Below are positions 10,624-29,007 of a stretch of DNA of 29,214 nucleotides, in pieces. Each line of letters starts with the position of its first letter. The first letter of the stretch is position 1. The DNA is from a virus, in the IMG/VR virus record IMGVR_UViG_3300031687_000077, positions 1 to 29,214 of that record. One strand, 5' to 3'. The notes beneath the pieces were generated by a model. That model did no database searches and had not been told where the DNA came from. It saw nothing but the letters and a program-made list of their open reading frames with translations. Made by a program: the position numbers and the translations under genes.

Positions 10624-10699
10624 GCTGGATTAGCTCAGTTGGTAGAGCAACTGATTTGTAATCAGTAGGTCGTCAGTTCGAATCCGACATCCAGCACCA
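10624..10699 (+). tRNA. tRNA-Thr (anticodon UGU)
   Basis: The acceptor stem GCTGGAT pairs fully with ATCCAGC. The anticodon stem ACTGA/TCAGT closes the loop TTTGTAA, giving anticodon TGT for ACA codons. The T arm contains GTTCGAATC, and the discriminator A and CCA (10697-10699) are encoded. It starts one base after the preceding stop. Confidence 0.95.
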
Positions 10700-13967: not shown

Positions 13968-16279
13968 ATTCCCCGATGTTAGTAGTTAAGTCAGATGGTT
14001 CTAAGGTTCATATAGACCTAGATAAAATTCATAAAATGGTTCATAAGGCGTGTAAAGGTATTGCAGGTGTATCAGAGTCTTTAGTAGAAATGAACAGTGG
14101 TCTTCAGTTTTCTGAAGGTATCTCCACAATAGATATACAAAAGATTTTAGTTAAGTCTGCATCAGATTTAATCTCATTAGAAGCACCCAATTACCAATAT
14201 GTCGCCGCCAGACTATTACTGTTTGGTGTTCAAAAACAAGTGTTTAACACTAAGTGGAAAGACTCTACCATCTATCCACCACTCAATGAAATCATAGATA
14301 AGAACATAAAGAAAGGGGTATATGACCCTGAGATTCTTAATATGTATACTCTAGAACAGATACAAGAATGTGACAAATACATTAAACATAGTAGAGACCT
14401 AACATTCACATATGCAGGTCTACAACAAATCGTAGACAAATACTTAGTTCAAGACAGGTCTAATTCTGAAGTGTTCGAGACACCTCAGTTCATGTATATG
14501 TTAATAGCAATGACTTTATTCCACAATTACGAAGAAGAGACGAGATTAGATTATGTCAAAAGATACTACGATGCAATATCAACTTTTAAAATCAGTATAC
14601 CCACACCTATTATGGCAGGGGTCAGAACACCTTTACGACAATTCGCATCATGCGTACTCGTTGATGCCGATGATTCCCTCGATTCAATCTTTACGAGTGA
14701 CATGGCAATCGGAAGATATGTCGCCCAACGTGCAGGAATTGGAATTAACATGGGGAGAATACGAGGACTTGGTTCAAAGATACGAGGTGGAGAAGTCCAA
14801 CATACAGGAGTCATCCCTTTCCTCAAAAAGTTTGAAGCAACAGTTAGAAGTTGCACCCAAAACGGAGTACGGGGTGGAAGCGCAACGGTACATTTTCCAA
14901 TCTGGCATCAAGAAATCGAAGACATCCTTGTTCTCAAAAACAATAAGGGGACAGAAGACAACAGAGTAAGAAAACTGGATTATAGTATTCAGATATCTAA
15001 ACTATTTTATGAAAGGTTTTTAAAGAACGAGGACATAACATTGTTTAGTCCTCACAACACGCCTGGCTTATATGAAGCATTTGGAACACCTGAGTTTGAC
15101 GAACTATACGAAAAGTATGAACGTGCAACCTCAATTCCAAAAACCAAGGTTAGTGCAAGAGAATTGTTTACGGATATGTTGAAAGAACGTGCTGAAACAG
15201 GACGTATCTATATTATGAATATCGACCATTGCAATTCTCATAGTAGTTTCACGGACAAGGTGAACATGAGTAATCTTTGTCAAGAAATTACACTACCAAC
15301 AGACCCATTGACTCATATCGATGGAGATGGCGAGATAGCGTTATGCATTTTAAGTGCAATCAATGTTGGTATCATCAAGATGGATGAATTATCAAACCTA
15401 TGTGACCTTGCAGTGAGAGGACTTGAGGAACTTATAGATTTCCAAGAGTATCCTGTAGAAGCTGCAGAGAGGTCAACCCTCGCAAGAAGGTCACTAGGTA
15501 TTGGTTATATTGGTCTTGCACATTTCCTTGCAAAGAATAGAGTCAAGTATGACGACCCTGAAGCACATAAATTAGTGCATGAACTTACAGAGTCATTCCA
15601 ATATCATTTACTATGTGCATCAAATCAAATTGCATCAGAGAAAGGTGCGTGTGAAGGTTTCGGTGGAACAAAATATGCACAAGGTCAACTACCTATCGAC
15701 CATTACAAAAAAGAAGTCGATGAGATTACCCCTCATGTATTGAAACATGACTGGGAAAAATTAAGAACTTGTATTAAGGTTCACGGGTTAAGACACTCCA
15801 CATTGACTGCACAAATGCCGTCAGAGAGTTCCTCAGTCGTCTCTAATGCGACTAACGGAGTAGAACCACCTAGAGACTACCTAAGTGTCAAGAAGAGTAA
15901 GAAAGGAACACTTAAACAAGTAGTCCCTCAGTATTCCATGTATAAGAACTTCTATACATTACTATGGGATATGCCAGATAACGATGGATACATAAAAACT
16001 ATTGCAGTGATGCAGAAGTTCTTTGACCAAGCAATTAGTGGTAACTGGAGTTACAACCCTGAGAATTTTACAGATGGAGAAGTTCCTGTATCAGTTCTTG
16101 CAGGAGATATGTTGAAGACATATAAGTATGGATGGAAGACATCATACTACCAAAATACAATGGACGGGAAAACTGAAGACGTAATTAAGGATGAGAATTC
16201 AGCAATGAATGAATACATTCCACCTATGTTAAACAGTCCCGATAGTGAAGAGGAAGATTGCGATGCCTGTGCGATATGA
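13964..16279 (+). CDS. nrdA: Ribonucleoside-diphosphate reductase alpha subunit, class Ia
   Basis: The protein is 771 aa, full length for class Ia. It reduces NDPs to dNDPs with NrdB. Residues about 5-90 form an ATP-cone-like regulatory domain. Active-site features are visible: C230 in FASCVLVDADD, N437/C439/E441 in MSNLCQEITLP (the same numbers as E. coli), C461 in EIALCILSA, and the radical-transfer pair Y728-Y729 in KTSYYQNT. The C-terminal C766-x2-C769 (DCDACAI) would be the redox relay, reduced by the glutaredoxin encoded downstream. The start overlaps the primase stop (ATGA). A 2OG oxygenase gene separates it from nrdB. Confidence 0.97.
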   Translation: MNSPMLVVKSDGSKVHIDLDKIHKMVHKACKGIAGVSESLVEMNSGLQFSEGISTIDIQKILVKSASDLISLEAPNYQYVAARLLLFGVQKQVFNTKWKDSTIYPPLNEIIDKNIKKGVYDPEILNMYTLEQIQECDKYIKHSRDLTFTYAGLQQIVDKYLVQDRSNSEVFETPQFMYMLIAMTLFHNYEEETRLDYVKRYYDAISTFKISIPTPIMAGVRTPLRQFASCVLVDADDSLDSIFTSDMAIGRYVAQRAGIGINMGRIRGLGSKIRGGEVQHTGVIPFLKKFEATVRSCTQNGVRGGSATVHFPIWHQEIEDILVLKNNKGTEDNRVRKLDYSIQISKLFYERFLKNEDITLFSPHNTPGLYEAFGTPEFDELYEKYERATSIPKTKVSARELFTDMLKERAETGRIYIMNIDHCNSHSSFTDKVNMSNLCQEITLPTDPLTHIDGDGEIALCILSAINVGIIKMDELSNLCDLAVRGLEELIDFQEYPVEAAERSTLARRSLGIGYIGLAHFLAKNRVKYDDPEAHKLVHELTESFQYHLLCASNQIASEKGACEGFGGTKYAQGQLPIDHYKKEVDEITPHVLKHDWEKLRTCIKVHGLRHSTLTAQMPSESSSVVSNATNGVEPPRDYLSVKKSKKGTLKQVVPQYSMYKNFYTLLWDMPDNDGYIKTIAVMQKFFDQAISGNWSYNPENFTDGEVPVSVLAGDMLKTYKYGWKTSYYQNTMDGKTEDVIKDENSAMNEYIPPMLNSPDSEEEDCDACAI

Positions 16280-17276
16280 AGATAAGTTAGTAAAGATAGA
16301 ATTAGAAGATGTACCTGAAGGTGCTAAAATTGATTCCAAAGATGGTAAAGCAACCATTAAAGGATGGACTAATGACCTAACAAGAGACTTTCAGAAGAAT
16401 GGTTATGTTATTCTAAGAAATTTCATACCTAAAGACATTATCAATATGACCTTGGACTCATGGTTGTCACTTGAAAATAAACCCGAATGGAATGAGACCT
16501 TCTTTGATGTAGAAGAAGATATCATTCACGATTCACCTAAAGAATCTTTGAATAAATCTTCGGGATGTTACTCCTTTCCACCTGCAGTTGCACTACATAG
16601 ATGGTTAAGAGATAATCTCGACAAGACTATTGATATGCAACTCGTAGAAACCTATGCATACACTAGGAAATACGGAAGAGGTTCATATCTTAAAGCACAT
16701 AGTGACCGACCTTCATGTGAAGTAAGTGCAACGATTTGTCTTAAGTATAAAACAGATGACAATACCCCTTGGAAGATATGGGTTCAGAAAGATAAGAACT
16801 ATATCAATGATGCAAGAGGTGAAGGTCAACAAGTATTCTTTGAAGAGATGCAAAACATCCCTCATAGAGATAGAAAAGGAATACCTATATCATTAGAAGT
16901 AGGAGACCTCTTACTTTATCAAGGGCCGAATGCAGTTCACTGGAGAGATACTCTTTTAGGTGACCATTCATATCATATGTTTTTACACTTCATCAATCAT
17001 GGTGGACAAATAAATGCATTTGATAAATTCCATCAACCCAAGGAGAGACCAAGGTCAGACGGAAGACCTCATAATGTATTTGCATATGATGGAAGAAAGA
17101 GTAGATATCATCATGAACAACAAAAATATTTCCATGATGCGATGGAATTTTGGAATGAGTGGGGTGCTGGTGAATACGATTGGTTTGACCCATCAGAATA
17201 TATAAACAACTATGATATCATAGAAGACGTAGAGTTAACAGACAGAGAAAAGAGACTAATAGATGACAGTATTTAA
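16263..17276 (+). CDS. 2-oxoglutarate/Fe(II)-dependent oxygenase between nrdA and nrdB
   Basis: The protein is 337 aa from ATG 16263, which has a GAGGA site about eight bases upstream and overlaps nrdA by 17 bases. The double-stranded beta-helix signature is present: H146-x-D148 in KAHSDRPSCEVS and the distal His in NAVHWRDTLLG (H226). A hydrophobic strand with HMFLHFINHGG follows. Residues 1-35 form a separate small segment with a DGKATIKGW beta turn. The family hydroxylates small molecules, proteins or nucleic acids; the substrate here is unknown. The overlaps on both sides place it firmly in the dNTP operon. Confidence 0.9.
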   Translation: MPVRYEDKLVKIELEDVPEGAKIDSKDGKATIKGWTNDLTRDFQKNGYVILRNFIPKDIINMTLDSWLSLENKPEWNETFFDVEEDIIHDSPKESLNKSSGCYSFPPAVALHRWLRDNLDKTIDMQLVETYAYTRKYGRGSYLKAHSDRPSCEVSATICLKYKTDDNTPWKIWVQKDKNYINDARGEGQQVFFEEMQNIPHRDRKGIPISLEVGDLLLYQGPNAVHWRDTLLGDHSYHMFLHFINHGGQINAFDKFHQPKERPRSDGRPHNVFAYDGRKSRYHHEQQKYFHDAMEFWNEWGAGEYDWFDPSEYINNYDIIEDVELTDREKRLIDDSI

Positions 17277-22421: not shown

Positions 22422-23369
22422 ATGAAACCCCCAGTGATGCCAGAAGAACGAAGAGAGAAGACTGAAGAACAACTTAGTCATGAGGAGAAGGTATTCGATG
22501 CAATTAAAACAATACCAACTATGACTGAATTGAATGACGAAGGGACATTTGATGTTCCATTCGACCAAGTCCCCGACTCAGTAAAACGAAGTGCAGAGGA
22601 GATATATCCCCCTGTTCCCGATTCGTATCAACCTGCAGAGGCGATGTTACTTCAACTATTCCCTATACCATTTTTAAGAGGTCAACTTGACTTCGATACA
22701 GATGTAATTGCAGATTCATGTCGTGAGATATTACGAGATGTTGAACAAGGTGATGTAAACAATGAATACACTACCTATTTCAATGAAGAGGCACGAATCA
22801 AAATGCACGACACACAATGGTTCAAAGACTTCTCGAACAAAATCAAAGACTCATATATCACATTCATTGCGAATATGTTTCATACACCAGTCGCACATCT
22901 TTCAAGAAATGACATCCATCTATTCGCATGGATAAATCGTTACACTGGCCCACATCAACATGGCGCCCATAATCATGTCAACTCGCACATCAGTGGAACT
23001 TACTATGTCAAGACAGAACAATCAGACCAACCTATAAAGTTTTGGTCACCTAATATGATGGGTAATGCTAATCACCTTGCAGTCGATAGAAGTCAACAAA
23101 GGGAAGGATTCCCTAACATGGTATTTGATGGTGTCGCAGGTGTTGACTCTACAATTCAAGTATTTCCAACGAATGATGAGTTCCTATTTTGGCCATCATA
23201 CCTGTTACATAGTGTAGAACCTACTAATAATCAAAATGGGATTGCACATTACGAGAGAATATCAATCTCATTCAACCTTAAATACAGAGACACAATCGAC
23301 AATAATCTTACAGGTGATGATATGGGTTATGGATTCATGCAAGAGGAGATTGGCCATAATCGTGATTAG
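22422..23369 (+). CDS. 2OG-Fe(II) oxygenase, TIGR02466-like
   Basis: The protein is 315 aa with an AAGGAA site upstream. Residues 1-75 are acidic and probably flexible. The oxygenase domain begins near FPIPFLRGQLDFD. The metal site lies in GPHQHGAHNHVNSHISG (177-192), with the distal His in FWPSYLLHSVEP (H263) and an Arg in HYERISISFNL (R279) for 2-oxoglutarate. The pattern fits the putative 2OG oxygenase family TIGR02466, common in marine phages, whose substrate is unknown. It is the first of three oxygenase-like genes in a row. Confidence 0.88.
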   Translation: MKPPVMPEERREKTEEQLSHEEKVFDAIKTIPTMTELNDEGTFDVPFDQVPDSVKRSAEEIYPPVPDSYQPAEAMLLQLFPIPFLRGQLDFDTDVIADSCREILRDVEQGDVNNEYTTYFNEEARIKMHDTQWFKDFSNKIKDSYITFIANMFHTPVAHLSRNDIHLFAWINRYTGPHQHGAHNHVNSHISGTYYVKTEQSDQPIKFWSPNMMGNANHLAVDRSQQREGFPNMVFDGVAGVDSTIQVFPTNDEFLFWPSYLLHSVEPTNNQNGIAHYERISISFNLKYRDTIDNNLTGDDMGYGFMQEEIGHNRD

Positions 23370-23376
23370 TTGGATA

Positions 23377-23475
23377 ATGAAAAAGATATCCGATGCATTT
23401 GAAAGAATGATTGAACGAAGTTGGCAAAGGAAGGCAGACAGAATGCACAAACACTTAGGAAGAAAAAAGAAATGA
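23377..23475 (+). CDS. Tiny basic protein (32 aa)
   Basis: ATG 23377 follows the upstream stop by seven bases, and the frame runs to TGA 23473-23475, which overlaps the next start (ATGATG). The protein reads MKKISDAFERMIERSWQRK and ends in a basic LGRKKK tail. It is an amphipathic basic helix. It could be a real micro-protein or mainly a means of coupling translation to the next oxygenase gene. Confidence 0.5.
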   Translation: MKKISDAFERMIERSWQRKADRMHKHLGRKKK

Positions 23476-24173
23476 TGAACAAAACATACATAATGGACGA
23501 ACTATTTAAATTCTCAGATAGATTCGATGCAGAATTTGATGGTGAAGTATTGACCATAGACAACTTCTATGAGAACCCTGAAATCATCCACGACTATCTA
23601 GAACATAGAAGTTATCCCATGTGGAAATACTCGCAGGATAGACCATCACGCAACGGGATAGATTACAATGATTGCAGGATAACCGATAAGGTTGCACATC
23701 CTACTCGCACCTATTACAATGAAATGGATAGAGTGATAAGTCTATGTAGAAATTACTGGCATAAGGGAGAGTACGAATGGGACATGATTGAGGAGTGGAA
23801 TTGTTTCCAGTCAATCAACCAATTTGACACTAAGATGCAACACTACCCACATACAGATTCAACACTAGATTCACCCGATAATGAATCGATACTCAACATG
23901 ATTGTTTACATGGATAAACATGAAAGTGGTGGAACTGCATTCTATGACGGAACATGGTTATCTAATGATGAACATCAGAACTTACTATTTCCAGTATTAG
24001 ATAGATTTGAGTTACAGAGAGTAATCCCTGCAAAATTTAACAGATGTGTCATATTTCCTGGCAACCGTATCCACGGAGCATGGGTTGATGACTACCATAA
24101 ATATATGGGTAACGACTGGAGATATTCACAAGTCCAGTTTTTGAAACCAGTGAGAGAATGGAGAAATAAATAA
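23472..24173 (+). CDS. DUF6445-like protein, 2OG/Fe(II) oxygenase-type fold
   Basis: The protein is 233 aa, starting at the first of two adjacent ATGs (23472, 23475) with AGGA upstream. The iron site looks complete: H127-x-D129 in QHYPHTDSTL and H201 in FPGNRIHGAWVDD, with an Arg in WRYSQVQFL. Between them lies YMDKHESGGTAFYDG, typical of prolyl-hydroxylase-type domains. I recall similar proteins as DUF6445. It overlaps the next gene by one base (TAATG). Confidence 0.85.
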   Translation: MMNKTYIMDELFKFSDRFDAEFDGEVLTIDNFYENPEIIHDYLEHRSYPMWKYSQDRPSRNGIDYNDCRITDKVAHPTRTYYNEMDRVISLCRNYWHKGEYEWDMIEEWNCFQSINQFDTKMQHYPHTDSTLDSPDNESILNMIVYMDKHESGGTAFYDGTWLSNDEHQNLLFPVLDRFELQRVIPAKFNRCVIFPGNRIHGAWVDDYHKYMGNDWRYSQVQFLKPVREWRNK

Positions 24174-24766
24174 TGAGAAACCCCCCCGTAATAATAGTGG
24201 CACACGCCGCCGTCCCCGATGATATGTGTTTTGCAATCATTGACAAACACGTTGAAGCCGATGAATCCCTAATTGAATATGATGACCTAGGTGTAGAAAC
24301 CTATGCACTCATGGAAGGTACTGGAGACCATAGCGATGTTATGGAATGGATTGAACGGTATTTACCATGGGACGATGACTTCGGAAAGATATCCAACATG
24401 AGAATATTAAGGTATGGAATGGAATGTTCTAGACCTTGGATGTGTGACGACCCTGAATCAGGTGACACTGGTAAGGTGATATTTAACCTCAACGAGAATT
24501 TCGTTGGTGGTAACTTGTCCGTAGATGGACATAGATTTATTCCGTTTTGTGGAACTATGGTTGCATTCAACAATAGTACTGAAAGATGGCATGGAATCGA
24601 ACCTGTTCTAACTGGAGAAAGATTTAGTCTTGTAATACGATTTACAAGAACAGATGACTTCGTAGAACCTGAAGACAATATGACAGAGGATATGTTTGAC
24701 CAAGAAGAGTCTGCAAATGACCCTGTCGAAACAAAAGTATTCCCCAAGGTAATACTTAAAAACTAA
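24173..24766 (+). CDS. Diverged 2OG oxygenase-like protein lacking the first His ligand
   Basis: The protein is 197 aa, starting in the TAATG overlap. The fold pattern is present: RILRYGMECSRPWMCDD (77-93), IFNLNENFVGGNLSVDG (103-119), FCGTMVAFNNSTERWHGIEP (125-144) and GERFSLVIRF (148-157). H140 and R150 match the distal His and the 2-oxoglutarate Arg. The HxD position reads MCD (90-92), so the first His appears to be missing, which suggests a non-catalytic or altered metal site. Seven C residues directly after codon 2 (24181-24187) could cause slippage. The acidic tail (DNMTEDMFDQEESAND) is unusual. Confidence 0.78.
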   Translation: MRNPPVIIVAHAAVPDDMCFAIIDKHVEADESLIEYDDLGVETYALMEGTGDHSDVMEWIERYLPWDDDFGKISNMRILRYGMECSRPWMCDDPESGDTGKVIFNLNENFVGGNLSVDGHRFIPFCGTMVAFNNSTERWHGIEPVLTGERFSLVIRFTRTDDFVEPEDNMTEDMFDQEESANDPVETKVFPKVILKN

Positions 24767-25260: not shown

Positions 25261-25280
25261 TAATGAAAGAAGGAGAATAT

Positions 25281-25934
25281 ATGAAAAATATATTAACAGG
25301 ATTGTTAATAACAATCTTATCTGCACCTGCATTTGCAGGGTCAGTATCGGGTGGTTTAAACTATGGTTCAGACTACATTTTTAGAGGGATGTCGCAATCG
25401 GGTAAACCGACTGCCGGCGCATGGTTACAATTAGATTCCGATTTAGGATTCTATGCAGGTGCATGGGGTAGTCAAGTAGACTTCTCATCCATGGACTCAT
25501 CAGAGACCTCTCAGGAAGTAGATTACTATGGTGGTTATAACCTACAAGTAAGTGATTCAGTGTCAGTAGACATGGGATATCAAAGACTTACATTTAATGG
25601 TTTAACACCCAGTGTTGAAGAGTTCTACTCTAAAACACAAATAGGTAATCTTGGTATCGATGTATATCAAGACTTAGAAACTAACGACAACTACGCAGAG
25701 ATATCATATGCATTCGGATGGTTATTCGATAACGCTTTTGATGCATCTCTAATGTTTGGTACTCACGATAGAAAAGGTGACGACTCATTCACTATGTTGA
25801 GGTTAGGTAAATCATTTGGTTCACAAAACCAATTTAACTTTGGAGTGTTAGTCGGTCAGAATGTCTTTGAAGGACAAGTTGCTGACTCAATCACTGCAAG
25901 ATTATCATATAACTTTAAGAGGAGTAACTCATGA
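25281..25934 (+). CDS. Outer-membrane beta-barrel protein, TIGR02001/Gcw_chp-like
   Basis: The protein is 217 aa from ATG 25281, chosen because AAGGAG lies six bases upstream; ATG 25263 is a weaker alternative. It has a signal peptide (MKNILTGLLITILSAPAFAG) cleaved after AFA. The mature part begins with SGGLNYGSDYIFRGMSQSG, the hallmark of the bacterial Gcw_chp/TIGR02001 family. It continues as alternating strands (LGFYAGAWGSQVDF, VDYYGGYNLQVSD) and ends with an aromatic C-terminal strand (ITARLSYNFKRSNS). In bacteria these are outer-membrane proteins of unknown function. In a phage it may alter the host surface or permeability during infection. It overlaps the next gene by an ATGA. Confidence 0.85.
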   Translation: MKNILTGLLITILSAPAFAGSVSGGLNYGSDYIFRGMSQSGKPTAGAWLQLDSDLGFYAGAWGSQVDFSSMDSSETSQEVDYYGGYNLQVSDSVSVDMGYQRLTFNGLTPSVEEFYSKTQIGNLGIDVYQDLETNDNYAEISYAFGWLFDNAFDASLMFGTHDRKGDDSFTMLRLGKSFGSQNQFNFGVLVGQNVFEGQVADSITARLSYNFKRSNS

Positions 25935-26123: not shown

Positions 26124-26199
26124 GGGGTCTTAGCTCAGTTGGGAGAGCGCTTCCCTTGCACGGAAGAGGTCGCAGGTTCGACCCCTGTAGACTCCACCA
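26124..26199 (+). tRNA. tRNA-Ala (anticodon UGC)
   Basis: The acceptor stem GGGGTCT pairs with AGACTCC (one G-U). The anticodon stem CTTCC/GGAAG closes the loop CTTGCAC, giving anticodon TGC for GCA. The T arm carries GGTTCGACCCC, and CCA is encoded (26197-26199). Confidence 0.95.
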
Positions 26200-26209
26200 G
26201 TTTCTAATT

Positions 26210-26299
26210 GGAAGATTGGCAGAGTGGTTGAATGCACTGGTCTTGAAAACCAGCAAAGGGTCAAACCTTTCGAAGGTTCGAATCCTTCATCTTCCGCCA
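26210..26299 (+). tRNA. tRNA-Ser (anticodon UGA)
   Basis: The acceptor stem GGAAGAT pairs with ATCTTCC. The anticodon stem CTGGT/ACCAG closes CTTGAAA, giving anticodon TGA for UCA. A long variable arm (AAAGGGTCAAACCTTT region) confirms a class II tRNA. Discriminator G and CCA (26297-26299) are encoded. It lies ten bases after tRNA-Ala. Confidence 0.95.
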
Positions 26300-26746: not shown

Positions 26747-26775
26747 TTGACCTAATTCAATACCTCTTGTAAAAT
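26747..26775 (+). promoter_or_regulatory. Sigma70-like promoter
   Basis: TTGACC (26747-26752) and TAAAAT (26770-26775) are separated by 17 bases, upstream of ATG 26837. A late-type box at 26793-26799 follows, so the unit could be read both early and late. Confidence 0.65.
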
Positions 26776-26792: not shown

Positions 26793-26799
26793 CTAAATA
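26793..26799 (+). promoter_or_regulatory. Late-type box CTAAATA
   Basis: The box lies 37 bases before ATG 26837, just downstream of the sigma70-like promoter, with an AGGA site between it and the start. Confidence 0.5.
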
Positions 26800-26836
26800 C
26801 ATTTATTAATTGAATTATATTATTATAGGATAAACA

Positions 26837-27700
26837 ATGGCAACGAATATTATCATGCACCAAAAGGATGGAGTCTCATCCGATGTTATAAACGACTCGT
26901 TCGTAAGACTACTCAAATACAGAATTAAGAAAATCTCAGAGGGATATAATGAAGTACGCTTTTTTTGTCTCACTAAAGATGCAACTGGTCTCTTACCCGA
27001 AATCATTCAAATCCCTATCAGAGAAGATGAGAATGTCGTGAATGAGGATTGGTATATCCTTCAATTGTTGGATAACCAACCTCAACTTGCGATTGACCAT
27101 TGTAAGAACATTCTTTGGAACCCAAGACTTATGCCACTTGACCTATGTCAGACTGCAATGTTGTTTGGAATGCCATTGAAGGGAACGACTGATAATCTAC
27201 CCGAAGGTCATGGACTCGATATTGAGACAAGACAAACCATAGAAGATAATGCATTACCATTCATGGAATGTCCTACAAAATGGTGGGATGATGGAAAGGA
27301 CAATACTTTCCTTGCACATTGGTATATGGCATGGTGTGGAGATGACCTCAGAAGTCTTGACAACCACTCAGAAGACACTAGTGGTTCCGTATGGGAATAC
27401 ATAGAGAACTCATTCAAAGGAGTTGTATTACCCACTAAACTTGCACAAATGAGTCCTTACTACCTTAACGATAAAGATAAGAATATTGAACTCAATGCAC
27501 AATACGAAGAAAAGGTCAGACCTTATTTCCCTGCAGAATTCTACCCACCACAAGCGGAAGAGATGGATTCAGAACTATTCTCATATGACCATGAGTGGAG
27601 AGACATCACACCACAAGTGCGATTTGTATATCTAGATGACCAAGGTGATTCGACCATTGAACCTAAATCAGATATGTATGCACGATTATGGTTTCTGTAG
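26837..27700 (+). CDS. Unknown 287-aa protein coupled to the DSBH/spermidine-synthase-like fusion
   Basis: The protein is 287 aa with AGGA before the ATG. It is acidic and rich in Trp, Pro and aromatic residues, with notable segments EDWYILQLLDNQPQLAIDH, FMECPTKWWDDGKDNTF and FLAHWYMAWCGDDLRS. A Pro-rich middle (YFPAEFYPPQAEE) precedes a final beta segment (QVRFVYLDDQGDSTIEP). I find no recognised catalytic motif. It shares a promoter and a 13-base overlap with the fusion gene, so the two probably act together. Confidence 0.8.
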   Translation: MATNIIMHQKDGVSSDVINDSFVRLLKYRIKKISEGYNEVRFFCLTKDATGLLPEIIQIPIREDENVVNEDWYILQLLDNQPQLAIDHCKNILWNPRLMPLDLCQTAMLFGMPLKGTTDNLPEGHGLDIETRQTIEDNALPFMECPTKWWDDGKDNTFLAHWYMAWCGDDLRSLDNHSEDTSGSVWEYIENSFKGVVLPTKLAQMSPYYLNDKDKNIELNAQYEEKVRPYFPAEFYPPQAEEMDSELFSYDHEWRDITPQVRFVYLDDQGDSTIEPKSDMYARLWFL

Positions 27701-29007
27701 GAACTACTGAACATCTAGTGTTTGACGACTTCCTCGGTAGTGAGGAGGCGTTGCATATCGCAAATATCCTTAGACGGGACGAACACAAAATACTTGCAAT
27801 CCCTAATACCTCTTCAACGGGGTATAAGGGAACAACTGCACAATATTCCGTTTATAATCTACTCACACATCCCGACATACGTCCCATGAATATACCTGAT
27901 AGGATATTCGACTTACCTATATTCCAACCCACACCTGAAAATGACTATGCAGAACTATGGGTGCAATGTTGGGGTAACGTACTCCATCAAGGACAAAACT
28001 TACCCGTCCATTGTCATGCAGAGAAAGAGGCGGAACATACCAATGATTTACTTGCGTGTTCAATCTACCTAGACGGTAAAGACCCATGTTATACGCATTG
28101 GGAAGACGGGAAACAAGTCAATGAACGAGGTACACTTCACGTTGCAGGTAAATTCCATGAACACGAAGTCAAGACCAACGTATTCACTGAACCACGCATA
28201 TCAATGGCGTTCGATATCTACTGGAATAGGGATAAAGTACTCACTGATTCACATAGACGATTCCTACACATACATCGAAAGGAAAACGTAGTCTATAAAT
28301 CCGACTTCAACGGAATGCCAATTGTCGTAAAGAAATCCGACACCCAAACCAAACTACATTTCGGACATCAATCAGACATAGTTCAAGCAATTATATTGAA
28401 CAAAAGTCCAACAACACTATGGTTCACCTATGTGAATCAATTATGTGGAGTAACCAATCAAGTCAAAGACCCAAAAACGGCACTTGTGTTAGGACTTGGG
28501 GGTGGAGTCATCCCTTCATGGTTACAAGAGAACACTAAGTGTGACATAGACGTGGTCGAAATCATCCCTGAACTCGAACAAATATCCCATGAATACTTCA
28601 ATATGCCAAAAGGTATCAATGTCATCATAGAGGATGCATTTGATTATGTCAGTAAAACCCCAAAACACTATGATATTGTCGTAGTGGATATAGGAGATGA
28701 GACATGGGAATTCATGGAACGATTTGATGATGCATTTTATAGAGACTTACAGAATATACTCACACCAAACGGATGTGTTGCAATCAATTACTTTGCATGG
28801 AAGGATACACCTGAACACGACAATCACTTAGAACAACTTAGAAAGACGTTCGGTCATGTAGAACTTCAACCCAACCCTTACCAAAAGAACAACAACTGCA
28901 TAACCTATTGTAGTAATCACAAACCCGACCATGGTACATACACAAACGCTGCTAGGTCATCAACACAAATAGATTCCAACGCAACTTGGGGCCCATTAGG
29001 AGAATAG
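27688..29007 (+). CDS. Fusion: oxygenase/cupin-like beta-helix domain plus spermidine-synthase-like domain
   Basis: The protein is 439 aa. Residues about 1-195 look like a double-stranded beta-helix domain: LPVHCHAEKEAEH (105-117) with H108/H110, then GTLHVAGKFHEHEVKTN (148-164) and EPRISMAFDIYW (168-179). A conventional HxD is not clear, so it may be a cupin-like or diverged 2OG oxygenase fold. Residues about 215-420 resemble spermidine synthases and related SAM-binding proteins: ALVLGLGGGVIPSWL (265-279) as the glycine-rich loop, VVEIIPEL (289-296) with the acidic residue, IIEDAFDYV (313-321), and YDIVVVDIGDE (328-338). The tail after about 420 is Asn/Ser/Thr-rich. The substrate is unknown; aminopropyl or methyl transfer linked to oxidation is inference. 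Confidence 0.82.
   Translation: MVSVGTTEHLVFDDFLGSEEALHIANILRRDEHKILAIPNTSSTGYKGTTAQYSVYNLLTHPDIRPMNIPDRIFDLPIFQPTPENDYAELWVQCWGNVLHQGQNLPVHCHAEKEAEHTNDLLACSIYLDGKDPCYTHWEDGKQVNERGTLHVAGKFHEHEVKTNVFTEPRISMAFDIYWNRDKVLTDSHRRFLHIHRKENVVYKSDFNGMPIVVKKSDTQTKLHFGHQSDIVQAIILNKSPTTLWFTYVNQLCGVTNQVKDPKTALVLGLGGGVIPSWLQENTKCDIDVVEIIPELEQISHEYFNMPKGINVIIEDAFDYVSKTPKHYDIVVVDIGDETWEFMERFDDAFYRDLQNILTPNGCVAINYFAWKDTPEHDNHLEQLRKTFGHVELQPNPYQKNNNCITYCSNHKPDHGTYTNAARSSTQIDSNATWGPLGE

Follow-up and report, generated by a model that had tools for sequence, protein, structure and literature searches.

A phage gene joining an oxygenase-like domain to a spermidine-synthase-fold domain, a probable methyltransferase, and its conserved upstream partner

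What could be the task of a marine phage protein that carries an oxygenase-like domain and a spermidine-synthase-fold domain in one chain, and what does the gene overlapping its start contribute? The pair lies in a viral fragment of 29,214 bases (the window, i.e. the whole stretch of DNA analysed), which carries aerobic ribonucleotide reductase genes and a primase whose nearest relatives, at <40% identity, are those of T4-like cyanophages. We refer to the upstream partner as UP and to the two halves of the fusion as OX and SYN. Our results suggest that UP and the fusion are probably a small kit for chemically decorating a molecule during infection.

Architecture and conservation of the locus

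The initial annotation described two genes with a 13-base overlap, and the features of the locus confirm this layout:

26747-26775, + strand: sigma-70-like promoter, TTGACC-17-TAAAAT, ahead of the UP/fusion pair (consensus scan and alignment)
26793-26800, + strand: CTAAATAC, a possible T4-late-promoter-like element (copy count and alignment)
26837-27700, + strand: UP gene, 287 aa, without family assignment; residues 1-203 weakly GT-A-like
27688-27700, + strand: overlap of the UP and fusion genes, 13 bases
27688-29007, + strand: fusion gene (OX and SYN), 439 aa
27688-28257, + strand: OX, N-terminal oxygenase-like domain, residues 1-190, double-stranded beta-helix (PF13759/phrog_81 relatives, model)
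28009-28017, + strand: codons of H108-x-H110, presumed metal site with no Asp/Glu ligand, invariant in 19/19 relatives
28162-28164, + strand: codon of H159, presumed distal iron ligand, invariant in 19/19
28195-28197, + strand: codon of R170, presumed 2-oxoglutarate clamp, invariant in 19/19
28282-28923, + strand: SYN, C-terminal spermidine-synthase-fold domain, residues 199-412, probable SAM methyltransferase (PF01564, structure matches)
28924-29004, + strand: C-terminal tail, predicted disordered (pLDDT <50 at residues 417-439)

A scan for sigma-70-like consensus sites counts no more promoters than in shuffled sequence. In the alignment, the -35 CTTG and the -10 TA(A/T)AAT are conserved in position across eight loci with differing surroundings, and promoter-like sites within the UP/fusion pair occur at chance level, so UP and the fusion gene are likely carried on a single transcript. 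The element CTAAATAC is present in four copies in the window, against 1.1 expected, and in the alignment the window has it in common with L010 and L011 only.

Four further viral contigs have the complete fusion as an open frame, namely L010 (= L001), L011 (= L002), L012 and L013, giving five with the window. All three parts of the locus are under purifying selection, with dN/dS values of 0.19 (UP), 0.17 (OX) and 0.30 (SYN) between the window and L010, and of 0.22, 0.44 and 0.28 between L012 and L013. An AlphaFold2 model of the fusion, built on 25 relatives, has a mean pLDDT of 87.4. Together, the intact reading frames, the dN/dS range of 0.17-0.44 and the confident model argue against a chance fusion. 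The fusion was previously noted as unusual, and indeed no match to the full chain was found in Pfam, NCBIfam, PHROGs, the PDB or phage records; no bacterial genome with a fusion relative was confirmed by tblastn. A limited literature search returned no description of the fusion or of UP. Pelagiphages are already known to carry clusters of 2OG-Fe(II) oxygenases (PMC9599517), and genes annotated as 'spermidine synthase-like' exist in Pelagibacter phage HTVC008M. The fusion is thus a new combination of known domains, with a predicted function.

UP belongs to a conserved family (A10) with members in 15 viral contigs, counting the window. OX lies directly 3' of UP in each of the 14 that continue past UP, while the fifteenth (L072) ends inside UP; the tight link between the genes proposed earlier therefore holds. 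The overlap is also 13 bases in L010-L014 and 19 bases in L017 and L073, and is replaced by a gap of 5-10 bases in L015/L016. OX relatives lacking UP occur in two other phage groups (L021-L032-type contigs and L033/L034), which makes UP an obligate companion in one lineage that is dispensable for the OX family overall. SYN is missing from L014, the sister to the fused proteins, and from L015, L016, L017, L018, L020 and L073. In the contigs with UP and OX but no fused SYN, a SYN copy was not found elsewhere, except for a separate gene in G013. The earlier suggestion of a two-component enzyme thus agrees with the pairing of UP and OX, but OX is found without UP, and both are found without SYN.

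The fused SYN halves make up a single clade (support 100/99) adjoining standalone genes, those of L074 and L077 among them; a single clade is likewise seen for the fused OX halves, but its support is weak (80/77). The simplest reading is a single fusion event, in which SYN was joined once, in one clade. Judged from the sequences, UP and OX are the older unit and the SYN half came later. HTVC008M contains a split version of the arrangement, in which a PF13640 oxygenase gene (AGE60373) overlaps a spermidine-synthase-like gene (AGE60374) amid baseplate genes. It differs from the fusion in that the genes are separate, the oxygenase is of another subfamily, and UP was not found. AGE60373 (L009 5574-6059) is annotated as 'DNA endonuclease V' and matches 2OG-FeII_Oxy_3; the annotation looks wrong.

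The spermidine-synthase-fold half

SYN matches PF01564 (Spermine_synth) above the cut-off (E 5.7e-9) as well as solved spermidine synthases (E 1.2e-11). Structure prediction, the check suggested in the initial annotation, yields the spermidine-synthase fold for SYN and a double-stranded beta-helix for OX (pLDDT 87). The SYN model superimposes on the spermidine synthase 3gjy (VIA Z 22.8, 2.8 Å, 223 residues) and on METTL13 5wcj (VIA Z 20.7, 2.6 Å, 180 residues). Its structural relatives include the rRNA m4,2C synthase 8vyd (Z 16.7), and the tRNA 5-hydroxyuridine methyltransferase 8k1f is among its profile matches.

In the spermidine synthase PfSpdS, His103, Asp127 and Asp196 serve the aminopropyl group, while Tyr102 and Asp199 serve putrescine (PMC4356361). 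His103 contacts the aminopropyl amine, Asp127 binds decarboxylated SAM (dcAdoMet), and Asp199, which has been called invariant in SpdS, binds the distal amine of putrescine (PMC4356361). The equivalents of these residues were mapped in 25 phage SYN domains by profile alignment. The position of Asp127 is Gly272 in the window and G or A in 25/25, and that of His103 is Val249 in the window and never His among the 25 relatives. Asp199 corresponds to Asp337 of the window protein, but is D in only 15/25 and is E, G or N in three of the five fused proteins. The equivalents of Tyr102 and Asp196 are Y and D, respectively, in 25/25; that of Glu147 is E or D in 25/25 and that of Asp178 is D in 24/25. The window protein keeps Y248, E291, D316 and the catalytic D334. 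A missing acidic residue in the GxG(D/E)G motif separates methyltransferases from spermidine synthases (PMC10349129); the window sequence reads GLGGG at residues 269-273, with the acidic residue absent.

Thus, the residues that hold dcAdoMet are lost, while the acids that bind the adenosine of SAM are kept together with the catalytic Asp and the Tyr, which makes SYN a probable methyltransferase and not a spermidine synthase. We reject the aminopropyltransferase reading on the loss of the Asp127 and His103 equivalents in 25/25 domains. Spermidine synthase (PF01564, SpeE) shares with SYN the fold, a small N-terminal beta domain, the adenosine-binding acids, the catalytic Asp and the Tyr, but differs in the residues holding the aminopropyl amine and in Asp199, which is not conserved in SYN. 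The METTL13 C-terminal domain and the fungal NHMT resemble SYN in the fold, in the non-acidic residue of GxG(D/E)G and in the SAM-binding Glu; unlike the phage protein, they have no fused oxygenase, and SYN is 23% identical over the aligned part. Residues and model together predict that SYN is, most probably, a METTL13-type SAM methyltransferase with a spermidine synthase fold. The 'spermidine synthase' labels across this phage family, including that of the HTVC008M gene, are probably wrong.

SYN-like genes also occur alone. In L048 (1008-3586), L050, L081 and L065 (4167-7204), a separate conserved three-gene module combines a standalone SYN-like gene with genes for an N6_N4 DNA-methylase-like protein and for a protein of 342-358 aa without family assignment; the L048 module also has a PLP enzyme gene. 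The L013 contig carries the SYN copy of this module alongside its fused SYN. In L076 (1-750) and L080 (2175-3461), a standalone SYN-like gene lies a few genes 3' of genes for a C5-type DNA methyltransferase (phrog_116), an epimerase-like and a glycosyltransferase-like protein.

The oxygenase-like half and the upstream partner

OX of the window protein resembles phage 2OG-Fe(II) oxygenases (phrog_81, E 4.1e-5). PF13759 is matched weakly by 17 of 19 OX relatives (best 2.5e-6); the L073 relative exceeds the cut-off (35.9 bits vs 27), and the window protein itself falls below it. This places OX near the PF13759/PhyH/Asp-Arg hydroxylase families and not near AlkB or TET/JBP. The OX model is beta-rich, with a pLDDT of about 90. 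Since a cyanophage 2OG-Fe(II) oxygenase gives its best fold match in the viral library (TMt 0.80, 22% identity), the 'beta-helix' of the initial annotation stands as a double-stranded beta-helix (jelly roll) in the model, but in no other sense. In the PDB, a sequence search with OX gave only a weak match to 2rg4 (E 0.79), and the fold-match lists for the fusion model were occupied by the SYN half.

The putative active site deviates from the canonical one. The carboxylate ligand of the HxD/E motif is absent, with H110 in its place in all relatives, and no conserved D/E was found two residues past H108 or H110 among them. The HxH is also present in neighbouring phage PF13759-type proteins. OX is a putative iron-dependent oxygenase, perhaps with a three-His site; the replacement of the carboxylate by His110 makes its 2OG chemistry an assumption. 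OX has in common with the phage PF13759/PHROG_81 oxygenases the double-stranded beta-helix, the distal His, the Arg and the HxH; it differs from them in the fused transferase and in the obligate pairing with UP in one lineage.

UP itself gave no match in profile searches of Pfam, PHROG, NCBIfam or the PDB, and a comparison of UP with OX did not indicate that it is a distant copy of that domain. The UP model is of low confidence (pLDDT 51), with the first 95 residues better predicted. Most of its top structural matches are GT-A glycosyltransferases or related nucleotidyltransferases. The best is the metal-independent BoGT6a (4ayl; Foldseek E 0.05; VIA Z 8.0, 3.5 Å, 144 residues), at a level that chance can reach. 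A conserved DxD motif is absent from the family, as it is from metal-independent GT6 enzymes. The comparison with a phage GT-A-like protein by hhalign scored 0.2%, giving the glycosyltransferase assignment no sequence support. UP may be a divergent GT-A-type glycosyltransferase, a lead hinted at by the model.

Candidate targets

The simplest reading of this anatomy is hydroxylation followed by methylation, with UP presenting or co-modifying the target. The phage operon would yield UP and a second, bifunctional protein, composed of an iron-dependent oxygenase-like domain and a SAM-dependent methyltransferase. OX would hydroxylate the target, and SYN would then methylate the same target or a neighbouring group. 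UP would position the target, and may itself glycosylate it as a divergent GT-A-type enzyme. We infer the two activities and their order from the domains and residues described above; the target would most likely be a protein, e.g. a phage tail or adhesin protein. Taken as a whole, this hydroxylate-and-methylate reading with UP as the obligate partner is tentative, a plausible candidate that falls short of being probable.

Two lines of evidence point to a protein. The spermidine-synthase-fold methyltransferases METTL13 and fungal NHMT modify protein N-termini (PMC10349129), and OX relatives elsewhere have tail-fibre or baseplate genes as neighbours, as does the split gene pair of HTVC008M, which is surrounded by baseplate genes. 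The OX relatives directly follow glycine-rich tail-fibre-type genes (phrog_863) in L023 and similar contigs, the L021-L032-type contigs have four tandem oxygenase or oxygenase-like genes 3' of glycine-rich fibre-type genes, and in S-WAM1 the OX relative precedes a baseplate-wedge-like gene (phrog_719). Such genes are neighbours only in other phage groups, whereas the fused genes themselves adjoin an outer-membrane protein gene and tRNAs. As the substrate, a phage structural protein is slightly favoured over tRNA, DNA or an envelope glycan.

The window contains three tRNA genes, the latter two just upstream of the operon:

10624-10699: tRNA-Thr(UGU)
26124-26199: tRNA-Ala(UGC)
26210-26299: tRNA-Ser(UGA)

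All three carry U34 anticodons. The tRNA-Ala(UGC) lies about 0.6 kb upstream in 5/5 fusion contigs, and two of these have the tRNA-Ser(UGA) as well. The fusion might thus act on nucleic acid, with OX hydroxylating and SYN methylating a base in tRNA (e.g. the wobble uridine of the adjacent phage tRNAs) or in phage DNA. Among the SYN relatives, 8vyd and 8k1f are nucleic-acid enzymes, and standalone SYN genes are often found beside N6_N4_Mtase-like or C5-type DNA methyltransferase genes. The animal ALKBH8 is a precedent, a 2OG-Fe(II) oxygenase and SAM methyltransferase in one chain that acts on tRNA; its oxygenase and methyltransferase are of other families, and the likeness to the phage fusion is one of architecture. 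Against a nucleic-acid target, OX groups with PF13759/PhyH/Asp-Arg hydroxylases rather than AlkB or TET/JBP. The tRNA-Ala also accompanies UP and OX lacking SYN in L073/G012, so that its co-occurrence with the fusion says less about a tRNA target, and the association is confounded since the fusion contigs are one clade. Overall, we regard a nucleic-acid target as somewhat unlikely.

A small molecule or a cell-surface glycan as the decorated target, with the downstream carbamoyltransferase genes taking part, is an unlikely reading. Carbamoyltransferase genes of the NodU type, split in two, are located 4-5 kb downstream in L001, L002 and L003, and both the GT-A-like hint for UP and the outer-membrane beta-barrel gene upstream of the pair would fit. 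However, contigs that lack the fusion (L016, L017) carry the carbamoyltransferase genes just as well, so these are not tied to it, and the glycosyltransferase hint lacks sequence support. A literature search for phage carbamoyltransferases in DNA modification found no papers.

The split carbamoyltransferase (NodU/CmcH type) has its N- and C-terminal domains in separate genes (L001 11734-13382; L002 11242-13169). The upstream gene at 25263-25934 of the window encodes a signal-peptide-like Gcw_chp protein, probably an outer-membrane beta-barrel, and its position is kept in related contigs. Near its own copy of the cluster, HTVC008M carries a gene annotated as 'outer membrane porin'.

Returning to the hydroxylate-and-methylate reading, its fullest form would be a cassette of three activities, a GT-A glycosyltransferase, an iron oxygenase and a spermidine-synthase-fold methyltransferase; together they would hydroxylate, methylate and possibly glycosylate a residue of some macromolecule, such as a phage adhesin. 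This form is decidedly doubtful; if true, both the modification chemistry and the enzyme fusion would be ones not described before. Were UP a glycosyltransferase, the locus would resemble LH3/PLOD3 and the mimivirus collagen lysyl hydroxylase-glycosyltransferases, which combine a GT-A-type domain with a 2OG hydroxylase acting on protein side chains but, unlike the phage fusion, have no methyltransferase.

It is very unlikely that the fusion, UP or both are non-catalytic, serving as ligand-binding or host-takeover proteins built on enzyme folds. OX does lack the carboxylate metal ligand, and UP has neither a DxD motif nor a family match, but the strict conservation of the metal-site histidines, Arg170 and the SYN catalytic Asp334 and Tyr248 argues for catalysis. 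Finally, a polyamine was among the targets first envisaged for this locus. That SYN works as a genuine spermidine synthase, or as another aminopropyltransferase, and raises polyamines during infection is extremely improbable: its Pfam and NCBIfam family name and the working spermidine synthases of other phages and viruses (PMC9992855) speak for it, but the aminopropyltransferase-specific residues are missing, the NCBIfam spermidine synthase equivalog cut-offs are far out of reach (80 vs 304 bits), and no gene for the AdoMet decarboxylase SpeD (PF02675), which the host could supply, was found in 11 virus records, mostly fragments but including the complete HTVC008M.

Oxygenase genes are numerous in the phages of abundant marine bacteria. 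The methyltransferase fusion and the dedicated partner narrow what one such oxygenase may do, and the fusion would allow both steps to be assayed in one protein. Three more oxygenase genes stand in a row at 22422-24766 of the window (PF13759; DUF6445/2OG-FeII_Oxy_3; 2OG-FeII_Oxy_3), making the OX half of the fusion the fourth such domain in 7 kb. Between nrdA and nrdB, the gene at 16245-17273 has no Pfam match as either a ferrochelatase or an oxygenase. It matches phrog_2954, 'ferrochelatase', yet both this gene and its relative in L023 (6885-7508) bear HSD...H motifs, which are typical of 2OG-Fe(II) oxygenases. The phrog_2954 name, and the pelagiphage reports of ferrochelatases beside oxygenases (PMC9599517), may thus rest on a mislabel.
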